This document shows, piece by piece, positions 49,679-55,313 of a DNA stretch of 64,000 bases. The DNA lies in NCBI GenBank assembly GCA_900167895.1, contig FUZR01000001.1, positions 601,144 to 665,143 of the forward strand. Direction: 5' to 3'. A model generated the notes under the pieces. That model ran no database searches and was not told the origin of the DNA. It saw nothing but the letters and a program-made list of their open reading frames with translations. Source of the DNA: Bacteroidales bacterium WCE2004 (GTDB taxonomy: Bacteria > Bacteroidota > Bacteroidia > Bacteroidales > UBA932). Every line of letters begins with the position of its first letter. Position 1 is the stretch's first letter. The translations under genes were made by a program, and so were the position numbers.

Positions 49679-52123
49679 ATGAGATTCTGGCAATCCTGGG
49701 ACGAAGAAGAGCGGGCCGCAGCGGTGCGGATCGCGGGTCTGTGCGTCGCGGCGCTGACCCTCTTCATCTTCATCTCCACCTTCTCCTACCTCTTCCACTG
49801 GCGGGAGGACATGAGCCTGCTGGGCGACCCTGACGCCATGCAGGCGGGCCGGGCCGTAGGCAACGCCGCCGGCAAGCTCGGCTTCCGGATGGGCCACCTG
49901 CTGGTGTGCGAGCTGTTCGGCCTGGGCAGCTTCTCGCTGCTGATCATCCTGACGGCCGTGTCCGTGCGCCTGCTGGCGCGCCGCTGGTCGAAATCGCTGG
50001 TCAAGACCGCCCTCATCGCCATCTTCGGCGCGTTCATCGCTTCGATCGTCCTCGCCTACGCGGGCAAGTGCGCCGGACAGGAGCTGCTCTTCGGCGGCGG
50101 CCTGGGCGGCCATTGCGGCGCCGCGGTCGTGGCCTGGGCCGAGAACCTCTTCGGGACCATCGTCACCGGCCTGTTCCTGCTGATCCTCACGGCCGCCTTC
50201 CTGTTCTTCTCCTCCAAGCGTTTCAACCGCTGGTTCGCCTCCATCGGGCGGAAGAAGGAGAAGCCGGTGGAGCCCGTGGACGCGGAAGAAGCCGAAGAGG
50301 AGGCCGAGGAGGAAGCGCAGGAGGAGCTGGAGGAAGCCTCCGACTCGCTGGCCGCGCTGGCGGAGGAAGCCGTGCCCGAAGGGATTCCTGACGGGCTGCT
50401 GGAGGGGGAGGAGATCCCCGATCAGGTCGGGGATGACGCCGCAGCCGCTGTCGCTGAAGCCGCCCTGGCGTCGGCCGAAGGCAATTTCGAGATTGTCGCC
50501 GACAACGGCCTGGAGGCCGAAAAGGTGGAGGACCTGGCGCCCATCGACAACCGCCTGGACCCGCCGGACGGCCTGCCGAAGTATAAATTCCCTTCGCTGG
50601 ACCTGCTGGAGAGCTATTCCAGCGGCCGCCGCGAAGTGTCCACGGAGGAGCTGACGCGCAACAACAACAAGATCCGCGCGGCCCTGTCCAACTACAAGAT
50701 CCAGGTCACCGACGTCAAGGCCATCGTGGGCCCGACGGTGACGCTCTACAAGGTGTATCCCGCCCCGGGCGTGAAGATCGCCGACATCAAGAAGCTTCAG
50801 GAGGACATCGCCCTGTCGCTCAACGCCAAGGGCGTGCGCGTGGTGACGCTCTCCGATGCCGTGGGCATCGAGGTCGCCAACGACTTCTCCTCGATCGTCC
50901 CGCTCAAGGCGCTGCTCAACGACGAGGCCTTCCGCTCCAGCAAGGCCGACCTCCCGGTGGCCATCGGCTACACGATCACGCAGAAGGTCCGCGTGTTCGA
51001 CCTCGCCGACGCCCCGCACCTGCTGATCGCCGGTGCGACCAAGCAGGGCAAGTCCGTGGGCCTCAACGTCATCGTGTCCTCGCTGCTCTTCAGCAAGCAC
51101 CCTTCGGAGCTGAAGTTCGTCTTCATCGACCCGAAGATGGTGGAATTCTCGTCCTACGGCCAGCTGCTCAAGCACTACCTCGCCGTGCTGCCGGATTCGA
51201 CCGACGAAGATGACGAGCGCGCCAACGCCATCGTCAAGAAGCCGAAGGACGCGGAGAAGATCCTGCGCTCGCTGTGCACCGAGATGGACGACCGCTACGA
51301 GCTGCTCAGCAAGGCGGGCGTCAACAAGATCACCCTCTACAACGAGAAATTCAAGGAGCGCAAGCTCCGTCCCGACCACGGACACCGCTACCTCCCCTAT
51401 CTGGTCGTGGTGGTGGACGAATACGCCGACCTGACGATGACCACGGGCGCTTCTCCGGACGCGCGCGCGGCTTCGCGCAGCATCACCAATTCCATCATCC
51501 GCCTCGCGCAGAAGGGCCGCGCCGCCGGCCTGCACGTCATCCTGGCGACCCAGCGCCCTTCGGTGGACGTGATCTCGGGTATCATCAAGAGCAACTTCCC
51601 GATGCGCATCGCCTTCCGCGTGGCGTCCCGCGTGGACTCGATGACCATCCTCGACGCGCCGGGCGCGGAGAAGCTCATCGGCCGCGGCGACATGCTCTTC
51701 TCGGCCGGCATCGACTCGGAACGCATCCAGTGCGGTTTCATCAGCGGCGAGGAGATCGACGCGGTGACGGAGTTCATCGGCGGGCAGGTCGGCTACGGCC
51801 GCTGCTACAACACGCCGTACTACCTGCCTTCCCCGGCGGAGCCGGGTGCCGAGGGCGGCGAAGGCGGCGGCATGGTCGACATGAGCAAGGTGGACGAGCG
51901 CTTCGAGGAGGCCGCCAAGATGGTGGTCCTGAGCCAGCGCGGCTCCACGTCCGACCTGCAGCGCAAGCTCGGCATGGGCTACGCCAAGGCCGGCCGCGTG
52001 ATGGACCAGCTGGAGGCCGCCGGCATCGTCGGCCCGCAGGAGGGCTCCAAGCCCCGCCAGGTCCTCGTGCCCGACCTCAACACCCTCGAGCCCATCCTCG
52101 ACGCCTTCCTGCACCGCATCTAG
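49679..52123 (+). CDS. ftsK: FtsK/SpoIIIE-type DNA translocase
   Basis: A septum-located ATPase that pumps chromosomal DNA during division; 814 residues. Four transmembrane segments lie within about 20-185. A Glu-rich acidic linker follows (about 195-260, with many EEAEEE repeats), shorter than in E. coli. The motor has Walker A GATKQGKSV and Walker B VVVVDEYADL. The C-terminal gamma winged helix (about 745-800: SKVDERFEEAAKMVVLSQRGSTSDLQRKLGMGYAKAGRVMDQLE) reads KOPS-like DNA. The start abuts the DUF4290 stop. Confidence 0.95.
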   Translation: MRFWQSWDEEERAAAVRIAGLCVAALTLFIFISTFSYLFHWREDMSLLGDPDAMQAGRAVGNAAGKLGFRMGHLLVCELFGLGSFSLLIILTAVSVRLLARRWSKSLVKTALIAIFGAFIASIVLAYAGKCAGQELLFGGGLGGHCGAAVVAWAENLFGTIVTGLFLLILTAAFLFFSSKRFNRWFASIGRKKEKPVEPVDAEEAEEEAEEEAQEELEEASDSLAALAEEAVPEGIPDGLLEGEEIPDQVGDDAAAAVAEAALASAEGNFEIVADNGLEAEKVEDLAPIDNRLDPPDGLPKYKFPSLDLLESYSSGRREVSTEELTRNNNKIRAALSNYKIQVTDVKAIVGPTVTLYKVYPAPGVKIADIKKLQEDIALSLNAKGVRVVTLSDAVGIEVANDFSSIVPLKALLNDEAFRSSKADLPVAIGYTITQKVRVFDLADAPHLLIAGATKQGKSVGLNVIVSSLLFSKHPSELKFVFIDPKMVEFSSYGQLLKHYLAVLPDSTDEDDERANAIVKKPKDAEKILRSLCTEMDDRYELLSKAGVNKITLYNEKFKERKLRPDHGHRYLPYLVVVVDEYADLTMTTGASPDARAASRSITNSIIRLAQKGRAAGLHVILATQRPSVDVISGIIKSNFPMRIAFRVASRVDSMTILDAPGAEKLIGRGDMLFSAGIDSERIQCGFISGEEIDAVTEFIGGQVGYGRCYNTPYYLPSPAEPGAEGGEGGGMVDMSKVDERFEEAAKMVVLSQRGSTSDLQRKLGMGYAKAGRVMDQLEAAGIVGPQEGSKPRQVLVPDLNTLEPILDAFLHRI

Positions 52124-52186: not shown

Positions 52187-52585
52187 TTATTCCGCGTACC
52201 GCTGCTTGAACTCGGCGATCACAATGCGTTTCCCTTTCTTTTCTGCCGACACACGAGCTGTTCTTACCTTACCGGATTCGTTCTCAGAAACACTCACATA
52301 CACGTGTTGCTCCGTAGGCAAATAATAAACGCGGATCCAATCAAGGTCCACAACCCAGTTGCTGTGTTCCATATCCGACTCGTTTCCATAGAACACGGCA
52401 TTCTTCACGGAGCCCATATCGTCTGAAACCATAAGGGAAGGACCGTCAAGTTCCATTTCAAAATCAAACGGCCCCCCCGCCTTGCTGAAGAAAAAGCAGT
52501 GTTCGACTTTCTCGCATGAGACGTTCATCATCAAGACACAGAAAAGCGCTAACGTCCCAACCAATTTACGAATTACAAATTTCAT
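52187..52585 (-). CDS. small lipoprotein with BACON-like domain
   Basis: A 132-residue lipoprotein (signal with MNVS-C lipobox). The C-terminal half (HVYVSVSENESGKVRTARVSAEKKGKRIVIAEFKQ) follows the pattern of a BACON-type beta-sandwich, a domain common in Bacteroidota surface proteins. Base composition is clearly lower in GC than in the surrounding genes. It is the last gene of a three-gene leftward cluster, 5 nt after the previous one. Function is unknown. Confidence 0.7.
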   Translation of the reverse strand: MKFVIRKLVGTLALFCVLMMNVSCEKVEHCFFFSKAGGPFDFEMELDGPSLMVSDDMGSVKNAVFYGNESDMEHSNWVVDLDWIRVYYLPTEQHVYVSVSENESGKVRTARVSAEKKGKRIVIAEFKQRYAE

Positions 52586-52590
52586 TTCCC

Positions 52591-53451
52591 CTAATGCTTA
52601 ATAACATTTCTAACTAAAACAAAATCAAGCACATCTTGCGTTTCGACAAGAAGCTGATAATCAATATTATCAATATCAATATTCTCTACACATCCGCGCA
52701 GAAGAAACAGACTGCAATAAGCCGTATCGGGAATTCCTTCAAACAAGGTATCATCTAACATCGCACTTCCCGTATCCGGAAAATGCTTGAAATGAACAAC
52801 ATCTGACGACGAATAATCTTCACCAAAAAGAACAACCCCATTCCATTTTACGACGGCCATAATGCCGTTTTCGTTCTGCTTGTCTGCATTCCAACGGACG
52901 ACGAAGTCCCGGTCAAGACACAATGGAGCACGATGATTTTCGGAATCAAATTGAGGGAACGTTATCTTAAGAGACGCTGGCACATACATTTCGACGATTT
53001 CGGCATCTGCACCCTTCGTCGCAAGACTCAGTCTCGTGAGATCAAACTTGACGACTTCGCCAAAGAATTCTGCAAGCGAATTATCTCCGGATTTACTTGC
53101 CGGGGAGAGAAAATCTTTACCATTAATTCTGATTTTACTAGCAAACTCAGTCTTGCGGAGGCTCTCCTCTTTCGGATCATAAAAAGCAACCGCTTTTTCC
53201 AATCCGGTCTGTTCATAACGGAAGGACGCGATACCGATCCGAACATCCGCATCTTCAAAGATGGCTCTATACTCTCCTGGATCTCCATGAAGCTTAATAA
53301 TTGTCCGATCCGACATATAACTATCCTCGGAAACAGTCACGGTGATATCTTCCAGATCCACCTTTTCATCAACTTTCACCTCCGACTTTGCACAAGAAAC
53401 GGAAGTAAGTACGAGGAAACATAAAAGGATTGCAGTATCTATTATTTTCAT
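52591..53451 (-). CDS. hypothetical lipoprotein
   Basis: A 286-residue lipoprotein with a signal ending in a lipobox (SVS-C). The mature part is beta-rich and acidic (KVDEKVDLEDITVTVSEDSY; AVAFYDPKEESLRKTEF). No named domain is recognised. It is AT-rich compared with the window, as are its neighbours. It lies 11 nt downstream of the split lipoprotein gene. Comparable lipoprotein clusters in Bacteroidales often encode surface or fimbria-like proteins, but nothing here proves that. Confidence 0.7.
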   Translation of the reverse strand: MKIIDTAILLCFLVLTSVSCAKSEVKVDEKVDLEDITVTVSEDSYMSDRTIIKLHGDPGEYRAIFEDADVRIGIASFRYEQTGLEKAVAFYDPKEESLRKTEFASKIRINGKDFLSPASKSGDNSLAEFFGEVVKFDLTRLSLATKGADAEIVEMYVPASLKITFPQFDSENHRAPLCLDRDFVVRWNADKQNENGIMAVVKWNGVVLFGEDYSSSDVVHFKHFPDTGSAMLDDTLFEGIPDTAYCSLFLLRGCVENIDIDNIDYQLLVETQDVLDFVLVRNVIKH

Positions 53452-53462
53452 AATTCAAAGTC

Positions 53463-54032
53463 CTATTTGCAAATCAATTCAACGACTTCGGGCGCGGCCC
53501 ATTTATAATCCGATTTCACCTCTCCTCCCGTGCACACATCCTGCTCCAGCACATCAGAGAAAAACACATCCCGACTGACATGCTTCACTCCATATTCACC
53601 TTTTTGGATCACGCGCGTAACAGTATTGTCCACAAGAACGGCGCGTCCGTCCTCTATATGTACGGCCACCTCATTATCTATCGACTTCGTACCAGAAGAA
53701 GCAAAACCTACTGGATAATAAAGATCCGCATACGAAACCACATCCATAACATCAACAGCTCCTGATGATCCCAAAACCAGAGGAATAGCAGCATACCACT
53801 TGAAGCAAACTTCATCTGTCGTTGTAATCGTTTTAGCAAAGAACTCCGCCCAGCAAGCGGGTTTCGTGATTTTCGGCGCGTCTTTAATTTTGTTTTGCAG
53901 GCATAAATAGCCATCATCATACATATACACGTATTCGGCGCCATCCGAGCAATCCGGATCACGGAAGACAAACCCCACGAGCGGCGGTTCAATTCCATAA
54001 TAAAAACCGCTTAAAAGGGACGAAAACGTCAA
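53463..54032 (-). pseudogene. C-terminal part of a surface protein split by a poly-G frameshift
   Basis: The 189-residue reading frame (from a TTG at 54032) lacks a signal peptide and a good start. It stays open upstream without a stop to the G8 run at 54101-54108. Removing one G there joins it to the upstream 78-residue fragment and gives a continuous protein of about 286 residues. The fragment has several Cys residues (CSDG, ACWAEFF, DVCTGG, ELICK) and a beta-rich pattern. Either the gene is phase-variable and shown here in the OFF state, or it is a pseudogene or sequencing error. It is AT-rich, and the next gene follows 11 nt later. Confidence 0.75.
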
Positions 54033-54087
54033 GTAACCCGGTAAATAAGGATTAATACTATGGCTATTTTGTAATTGCGCGACAGTA

Positions 54088-54324
54088 TTAAACGGAAACG
54101 CCCCCCCCTATGCAAGAGTTCAAAAAAGGAGTTAAGTCATATCCTAGTTGTACTGTCCCCAAAGAAATGTCTTTTGTTTTCGTATAAACGGAGCTAAACG
54201 AAGGACGCGTATCTGCAGTGTTTCCGGACTGTTTTTGACAATCCTCGGCGGTCGACAGCAAGAACACTGCAGCAATGCCTAACGGGACCAAAGTACGCCG
54301 AAGAGAGAATTCTAGTTTTTTCAT
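54088..54324 (-). pseudogene. N-terminal part of a surface protein split by a poly-G frameshift
   Basis: A 78-residue fragment starting at the ATG 54324 with a signal-like N-terminus (LRRTLVPLGIAAVFLLSTAEDC); the Cys is near but not in a strict lipobox. The frame ends in NSCIGGGVSV, the stop arising just after the G8 run. Its promoter (54348-54355) is perfect. The reading frame extends upstream to 54378, but that part overlaps the terminator of the next gene. It belongs with the fragment downstream. Confidence 0.75.
54101..54108. repeat. homopolymer of eight G (minus strand), candidate phase-variation tract
   Basis: C8 on the plus strand, G8 in the coding sense. G7 (or G10) would restore one open frame across 53463-54324. 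It sits in an otherwise AT-rich gene. Confidence 0.7.
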
Positions 54325-54347
54325 AATTATAAATCTTATAGTTTTAG

Positions 54348-54355
54348 CAAATGTA
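54348..54355 (-). promoter_or_regulatory. -7 box of the lipoprotein cluster
   Basis: The minus strand reads TACATTTG, 23 nt before the ATG at 54324. Confidence 0.65.
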
Positions 54356-54361
54356 GAATAA

Positions 54362-54400
54362 AAGAAAAAAAACTGCAAGTTTCTCCATCGAAACTTGCAG
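54362..54400 (-). terminator. terminator after the lytic transglycosylase gene
   Basis: The minus strand has CTGCAAGTTTC, a 6-nt loop and GAAACTTGCAG, an 11-bp perfect stem (54400-54373) followed by a T8 run. It lies 34 nt past the stop. Confidence 0.95.
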
Positions 54401-54434
54401 GGTAACTACTTATCTACCACCAGAAAGCACGTGG

Positions 54435-55313
54435 CTAATGGGATGGAATGATGATCTGGTAGGTCTTGGAGTTCTTGTTGGTGAGCTTGTCGCTGCGGAG
54501 CCAGAGGTTGGCTTCTTTCAGGAAGAAATAGGTGGTGCCGTGCTCCGCGGCGAAGTCCGTCAGGTTCGGGATGGGGGCGCTGATCTCGACGATCTTCCTG
54601 GGCGCGCGGTAGGGATAGGGATCCGTGATGTGGAAACCGAAGTCCTCCGGATGCTCGAAGAAATACTTGGCCGTCAGGATGCGGAACATGTAACGGGAGG
54701 TCTCTACGGGCAGGAAAAGGTCCATCGCCTTCTTCTGGCGCTGGTTTGCGATGCGCTGGGTGATACCGCCCTGGCCGGCGTTGTAGCTGGCCGCCACGGT
54801 CATCCAGTCGCCGTATTTCGCGTAGGCTTCCTTCAGGTACTTGCAGGCGGCCTCGGTGGACTTGGCGATGTTGTAGCGCTCGTCCACCTCGTCGTTGACC
54901 TCCAGGCCGTAGGCGCGGCCGGTGCCCTTCAGGAACTGCCAGAGGCCCGCGGCCCCGGCCGTGGAGACGGACTTGGGGTCAAGATTGCTCTCGATGGCCA
55001 TCAGGTACTTCAGGTCCTCGGGAACGCCGTTCTTCTGGAGGATCGGGACGACCTGCCGGAAGATGCGCTCGGCGCGCTTGAGCATCAGCGTGGAATTGGT
55101 GTGCGAATAGGTGAAATTGATCAGTTCCCTGTCCATCCGCTCATAGAGGTCAGACCGGTCGAAACGGTAGGTCTGGCCGGCGAACTCGATGAACTCAGGC
55201 ACCTGGGGCGCTTGATAGTGAATCTCTTCGGGAATATAAACCACCTGGGCGCGGGCCGGGGCGGCAGCCGCGAGCGACGCGGCCAGCAGGAGCATGACTA
55301 ACGGTTTGTTCAT
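54435..55313 (-). CDS. lytic transglycosylase (MltD/SLT family)
   Basis: Cleaves peptidoglycan glycan strands with formation of 1,6-anhydro ends; 292 residues, exported (signal peptide about 1-22, ending ARAQ). The SLT domain (about 105-240) has the catalytic Glu in MAIESNLDPKSVSTAGAAGLWQFL and the YNAGQGGI motif. There is no LysM domain, unlike many MltD proteins. The start is fixed by the signal peptide and a near-consensus -7 box (CATCTTTG, 55318-55325). Confidence 0.92.
   Translation of the reverse strand: MNKPLVMLLLAASLAAAAPARAQVVYIPEEIHYQAPQVPEFIEFAGQTYRFDRSDLYERMDRELINFTYSHTNSTLMLKRAERIFRQVVPILQKNGVPEDLKYLMAIESNLDPKSVSTAGAAGLWQFLKGTGRAYGLEVNDEVDERYNIAKSTEAACKYLKEAYAKYGDWMTVAASYNAGQGGITQRIANQRQKKAMDLFLPVETSRYMFRILTAKYFFEHPEDFGFHITDPYPYRAPRKIVEISAPIPNLTDFAAEHGTTYFFLKEANLWLRSDKLTNKNSKTYQIIIPSH

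Follow-up and report, generated by a model that had tools for sequence, protein, structure and literature searches.

A gene with an export-type start divided at a run of eight G in a Bacteroidales genome: a possible poly-G switch in a genus with long G tracts

Gene organization at the locus

The window, i.e., the whole 64-kb stretch of DNA that was analyzed (64,000 nucleotides of Bacteroidales bacterium WCE2004), carries on its minus strand a block of about 2.2 kb composed of three genes, referred to here as A, B, and C, with gene A in the first position. The block is enclosed by an ftsK-like gene and a lytic transglycosylase gene. The features of the region are the following:

49679..52123, plus strand: ftsK-like gene, one flank of the cassette (named by eye from its sequence)
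52187..52585, minus strand: gene C, encoding a lipoprotein-like protein of 132 aa with weak BACON similarity below the Pfam cut-off; 27% identity (E 9e-15) to its G431 partner
52472..52478, minus strand: G7 tract in gene C, codons 36-38, in frame
52591..53451, minus strand: gene B, 11 bp after gene A, encoding a lipoprotein-like partner of 286 aa; its counterpart in G431 is 43% identical over 281 aa, six relatives aligned
53463..54098, minus strand: C-piece of gene A, 211 codons open in another frame (open 54098-53466, stop 53463-53465); relatives at 76, 52, and 47% identity
54088..54324, minus strand: N-piece of gene A, 78 aa with a signal-like start (ATG 54324, TAA 54088-54090), aligning to the N-termini of full-length relatives including P0003
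54101..54108, minus strand: G8 tract (C8 on the plus strand), codons 73-75, the point at which the two pieces of gene A part; one of five tracts of G8 or longer in 2.32 Mb
54348..54355, minus strand: promoter-like -7 box TACATTTG, matching TAnnTTTG, 24 bp before the ATG of gene A
54373..54400, minus strand: terminator-like hairpin, probably of the upstream transglycosylase gene; such sites are no commoner in the region than in shuffled sequences
54435..55310, minus strand: lytic transglycosylase (SLT) gene, the other flank of the cassette (Pfam SLT, E 2.5e-25)

The original prediction placed two fragments in different frames on either side of the G8 tract, and we found both the coordinates and the frames to be right; the gene lies on the minus strand, which had not been stated. 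The two pieces are open on both sides of the tract and are parted by its length alone. Reading of the frames revealed no second lesion, either in the N-piece or in the 211 codons after G8, which agrees with the earlier statement that no stop is met through the junction and leaves the break without the further downstream decay that would mark a plain pseudogene. In the frame of the C-piece a TAG stands immediately 5' of the tract, so that at the G8 length this piece is not enterable from upstream. The frames are more than a product of chance: genuine homologues exist for the C-piece, and the N-piece can be aligned with the N-termini of full-length relatives. As for the traits looked for in poly-G genes, the tract reads G on the coding strand, lies within the frame and in its 5' part, and is followed by 211 more codons; it is also the longest G/C run of the window. 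The start of gene A was judged by eye to be signal-like and hydrophobic, and its product is probably exported and held at the surface.

A perfect promoter had been proposed for gene A, of which only the -7 box can be retained. This box agrees with the TAnnTTTG consensus as quoted in a passage of PMC7366714, but the two strands of the 64 kb together contain 25 such boxes, and a sigma-70 scan gave no match at the promoter position.

The A-B-C cassette and its relatives

The cassette differs from its surroundings in base composition, with a GC content of 41-46% in 500-base windows from 52500 to 54499 vs. 62% for the whole window. In the two genomes closest by the flanking transglycosylase (G015 and G008, 79%), the gap between ftsK and the transglycosylase gene is empty and measures 70 and 76 bp; since these genes adjoin there, the cassette represents an insertion in the present genome. 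A horizontal acquisition of the cassette forms part of the explanation that we favor below. The cassette is sparse in the genus: gene B was detected in 10 of 400 genomes and the gene A profile in 6 of 400, including the source genome. The A-B pair was found in four same-genus species (G431, G628, G557, and G652), where it is positioned 3' of a gene for a small exported protein (recognized by eye); in G431 the pair is followed by gene C. A regulator-like protein of the TPR type is encoded beside the A-B operon in G628 and G557 (Pfam TPR) and in G652 (by eye).

We found gene A to be open in all four of these operons; a TAA flagged in G652 precedes the ATG. None of the four, read as DNA, possesses a G run at the site corresponding to G8, so that the tract lacks conservation. 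No G/C run in these operons exceeds a single G6, situated in gene B of G628. A G9 tract (L083:2283-2291) lies in G557 between the regulator-like gene and the cassette-homologous operon, about 190 bp before the first gene, and relaxase-like genes are located downstream of the same operon.

A protein search with the C-piece returned four matches, namely its own protein, P0001, and three relatives (76, 52, and 47% identity; E 5e-110 to 2e-49), with no near-identical full-length protein among them; a profile search added five more relatives. Six of these proteins, P0003 and P0005-P0009 (276-297 aa), continue uninterrupted across the G8 site, and it is to their N-termini that the N-piece aligns; P0005 corresponds to the gene A protein of G431 minus its first 18 residues. 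P0002 is unbroken at the site as well, but its record starts inside the gene, and the record of P0004 starts near the site. P0001 consists of the window's residues encoded on another contig of 769 bp, possibly from the same sample, and starts at an internal GTG, which would fit a gene A frame that is closed on that contig too.

The N-piece protein search, which reaches only proteins of 0.55 to 1.75 times the query length, gave no match; contig scans gave 16 and 60 pattern stretches, none of them a relative; and the phage records searched gave no match. Two viral contigs matched by a 17-base flank were rejected, being unrelated around the match, as were the weak profile matches L008, L069, and L070, which are other proteins; L107 (G672) and L294 (G748) were also among the weak profile matches. 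Neither Pfam nor NCBIfam assigned a family above cut-off to the pieces of gene A, its relatives, or gene B, and structure models of P0003 (pLDDT 75) and gene B (pLDDT 72) had no match in the PDB at E 0.001.

G runs in the source genome

In 364 kb of the source genome (G000), including the window, G/C runs of 5 to 8 number 254, 28, 5, and 1, a steady fall without a second peak. The whole genome of 2.32 Mb contains 22 tracts of 7 or longer, among them the five separate tracts of 8 or longer, of which only that of gene A is clearly intragenic. Three tracts of G7 or longer are clearly intragenic: G8 of gene A, the in-frame G7 of gene C, and an in-frame G7 in a gene of 357 aa at C5:23860. All three genes encode export-type N-termini, as judged by eye. 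When synonymous codons were resampled, a test that we settled on post hoc, two runs of 7 or longer arose in the cassette with p 6.5e-4. Elsewhere in the assembly, coding homopolymers are as a rule not broken: of the 34 G/C runs of 6 or longer in the 364 kb, 28 lie within an open frame of 200 aa or more, and some of these frames may be antisense. A first-order Markov expectation of run lengths was rejected because it over-predicts (121 tracts of G8 or longer expected in G000 vs. 5 seen); run-length decay, random positions, and G5 runs served as controls in its place. MutS1 is present in all three genomes tested, and mutS is present in the source genome; it is expected to hold mononucleotide slippage down.

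A dispersed GC-rich, REP-like repeat accommodates 10 of the 22 tracts of G7 or longer; it has hairpin-like flanks and contains a single G7 run or a pair of them spaced by about 24 bases (C1:697331, C1:722892, C2:266380, C2:403292, C3:72502, and C4:116828; L046-L049, L052, L054, L055, and L059-L061). In turn, C5:6349 and C5:8414 (L005 and L006) are two copies of a terminator-like hairpin with G8 in or beside the loop, located among genes for small exported proteins.

Long G tracts across the genus and the order

As the source genome alone cannot decide on the nature of the G8 tract, longer tracts were sought in its relatives. G9 or longer tracts were detected in 37 of 41 same-genus genomes that are at least 90% complete, the source genome included. 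Among the matches listed, we read 115 distinct tracts, which represent 31 of the 37 matching genomes and include a single tract of the source genome: 88 of G9, 21 of G10, 5 of G11, and 1 of G12, the lower end of this distribution being set by the search, which started at G9. Nine of the 115 were dropped for having less than 600 bp of flank, and 106, with 600 bp or more on either side, were counted. A tract was classified as 5' when, on the G-reading strand, it lay 8-90 codons after an ATG and its frame continued for 150 codons or more.

By this definition, 26 of the 106 tracts are 5' with G on the coding strand. Random positions in these loci would yield 11.0 (p 2e-5), and of the 242 runs of length 5 located there, 24 qualify (p 7e-4). 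For the C-reading strand, the corresponding numbers are 4 of 106 tracts and 17 of 242 runs of 5. One genome, G068, contributes strongly, with 9 of its 15 tracts being 5' vs. 17 of 91 in the other genomes (p 0.011). The share of 5' tracts that are in frame (12 of 26) is below that of random positions (0.70) and of G5-6 runs in the G068 sample (19 of 20), but comparable to that of G5 runs from those loci (13 of 24; p 0.78), and we therefore rejected the proposition that tract genes are out of frame more than expected. It is this genus background (G9 or longer tracts in 37 of 41 genomes, 26 5' tracts vs. 11), and not gene A alone, that lifts the case above that of a plain broken gene.

Across the order, 124 of 148 genomes contain long G runs. 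In G734, a genome of 1.2 Mb from the same order, we read fifteen tracts of G9 or longer, up to G18 (L271-L281); 11 of the 15 have no long frame downstream, and one is an in-frame tract within a gene that by eye resembles the one for ribosomal protein L11. Bare counts of G9 or longer tracts per genome were rejected as evidence, given that such tracts are order-wide and in G734 mostly lack a long downstream frame. By itself, a long G run is no proof of phase variation.

Genes carrying 5' tracts

A Pfam scan of all 26 pieces downstream of 5' tracts assigned a family to 14 of them, as follows:

TonB Plug: L110, L169, L176, L184, L238
BACON: L175, L178, L245
DUF3575: L182, L186
ECF sigma factor: L180
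SusG_C: L181
GDPD: L188
chorismate synthase: L215

Receptors of the SusC type and lipoproteins with BACON domains are thus among the products of the tract genes. By eye, the starts of L127 and L171 resemble those of lipoproteins. Several of the 12 pieces without a family (L114, L126, L134, and L138) have the look of antisense or spurious frames but were still counted. The 19 control genes, all from G068 (the 20 that were listed out of 21 runs, minus one sharing its gene with another), comprise one Plug, one DUF4493, one PCMD, and two without a family, the rest being enzyme-, transporter-, or household-like. Plug, BACON, or DUF3575 domains occur in 10 of 26 tract genes vs. 1 of 19 controls (p 0.014), a domain set that was picked after the matches had been seen.

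In 400 kb of G068, G/C runs of 5 to 9 number 177, 16, 1, 3, and 1, thus forming a second peak. In its 2.9 Mb at least 17 distinct tracts of 9 or longer are present, where decay from lengths 5-6 predicts 0.09; L173 and L177, at most 60 bp from a contig end, are possibly artefacts. In G052, two tandem paralogues carry a G10 (L247:3001-3010) and a G9 (L247:4872-4880) at the same place near the start and within like flanks. Both tracts are out of frame, as slippage would leave them.

Interpretation of the G8 tract in gene A

The reading that we favor, tentatively and as possible rather than probable, is a contingency locus: gene A would be switched by its poly-G tract and would have been sequenced while OFF. 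Gene A would lead a horizontally acquired three-gene surface cassette and encode an exported, probably surface-held product. Slipped-strand mispairing at G8 would shift the frame after codon 73, and the length of the tract would decide whether a stub of 78 aa or the full protein is made; with gene A OFF, expression of genes B and C may fall too, by polarity. From patterns in the DNA we infer length switching at gene A, its reversibility, selection for switching, the surface location of the product, and the polarity.

The phase-variable surface gene of the original prediction is partly supported by the export-type start, the coding-strand poly-G in the first third of the gene, the two open frames, and the freedom from other decay, to which we add that, within the genus, long poly-G is in excess in the 5' region of long genes, among which surface genes are numerous. 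Intact relatives in which gene A is open and the second coding G7 in the same cassette point in the same direction. Several findings count against such a locus: the tract is absent from all four relatives read as DNA, and at G8 it is shorter than the G9-G12 tracts of the related genomes; the source genome is poor in such tracts, its run counts fall steadily, and it possesses mutS; G runs are order-wide, and the in-frame share of tracts is like that of G5 runs.

The broader proposition, that a species-rich uncultured Bacteroidales genus possesses a poly-G phasome of which gene A is one member caught OFF, seems to us quite possible, if still short of probable. Hypermutable tracts of G8-G11 in the signal-sequence or 5' region of SusC-like, BACON, DUF3575, ECF sigma factor, and other genes would, through slipped-strand mispairing, switch nutrient uptake and the composition of the cell surface, either in addition to DNA inversions such as those of Bacteroides or in their place.

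A contingency locus has its closest competitor in a one-off slippage event, by which a homopolymer in an acquired, dispensable gene changed once, gene A being a young pseudogene and no selected switch. We regard this as a real possibility, ranked below the favored reading. It agrees with the lack of conservation of G8 in relatives, with a cassette that is sparse in the genus and newly inserted here, with a source genome that shows no excess of long tracts, and with P0001, whose internal GTG start on another contig fits the same closed frame. Yet, a pseudogene might be expected to have gathered other damage, and neither piece of gene A has done so; the genus-wide 5' tract pattern is not accounted for either, and homopolymer slippage is by nature revertible.

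An error of consensus or assembly, with a true tract of another length and an intact gene A, appears unlikely. The suspicion is natural for the longest G/C run of the window, homopolymer length errors being a known sequencing fault that in one metagenome set affects as many as 1% of genes, according to a passage of PMC8808543. However, most G/C runs of 6 or longer in the 364 kb are spanned by long frames (with the reservation on antisense frames made above), the coding G7 tracts of gene C and of the C5:23860 gene are in frame, and P0001 fits the closed frame on a contig of its own, though possibly one from the same sample.

Recoding would involve slippage on the G run by the ribosome or by RNA polymerase, with some full-length protein made from G8 DNA. 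This reading draws on the facts that G runs can slip at several levels and that both pieces of gene A are kept open, but we consider it very improbable; no relative has a tract or a frame break at the site, which is hence not a conserved recoding site, and conserved programmed frameshifting was rejected on this ground.

Relation to known phase variation systems

Among poly-G systems, that of Campylobacter offers the nearest comparison. Poly-G genes are recognized there with a cut-off of 7, and switching of expression was demonstrated for tracts of 8 or more, as given in a section of PMC6321876; for G8 in C. jejuni, a passage of PMC8224891 reports gain at about 4e-4 and loss at about 4e-5 per division, so that in this species a G8 tract is short but not inert. 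Like the members of the Campylobacter SSR phasome as they appear in these sections, gene A has a G tract within a frame, with G on the coding strand and open pieces in different frames. Unlike there, the present genome belongs to another phylum, possesses mutS, and has few such tracts. Poly-G runs of 7-8 were over-represented in only 9 genomes of the set surveyed, according to a part of PMC2831843.

As for the Bacteroidales, the relevant sections of two reviews (PMC11868660 and PMC12632263) describe phase variation in gut members as DNA inversion: in Bacteroides, promoters or genes are invertible, and the targets are surface proteins, SusC/SusD, and capsules. Those systems and gene A share the order and surface-type targets, whereas the mechanism would differ, inversion there and a G tract here. 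No report of poly-G phase variation in Bacteroidales was found among the literature matches listed, which came from freely available journal papers. Gene A may represent a type of on/off switch, based on poly-G, for which this order offers hardly any description. Should poly-G tracts in this genus indeed turn SusC receptors and surface lipoproteins on and off, differences between individual cells in glycan uptake, in phage receptors, and in antigens would have been overlooked, since inversion finders do not look for poly-G and annotation likely calls such genes pseudogenes; such switching is open to test on existing metagenome reads.

The nearest case within the order comes from Bacteroides fragilis 638R, where a part of PMC3090145 describes a single-base homopolymer frameshift in a polysaccharide locus and its authors suggest that slippage might generate variation. 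As with gene A, the frame of a Bacteroidales gene concerned with the cell surface is shifted at a homopolymer; the case differs in that the run is one of 4 C, with no long tract, and that what is described in that part is a difference between strains only.
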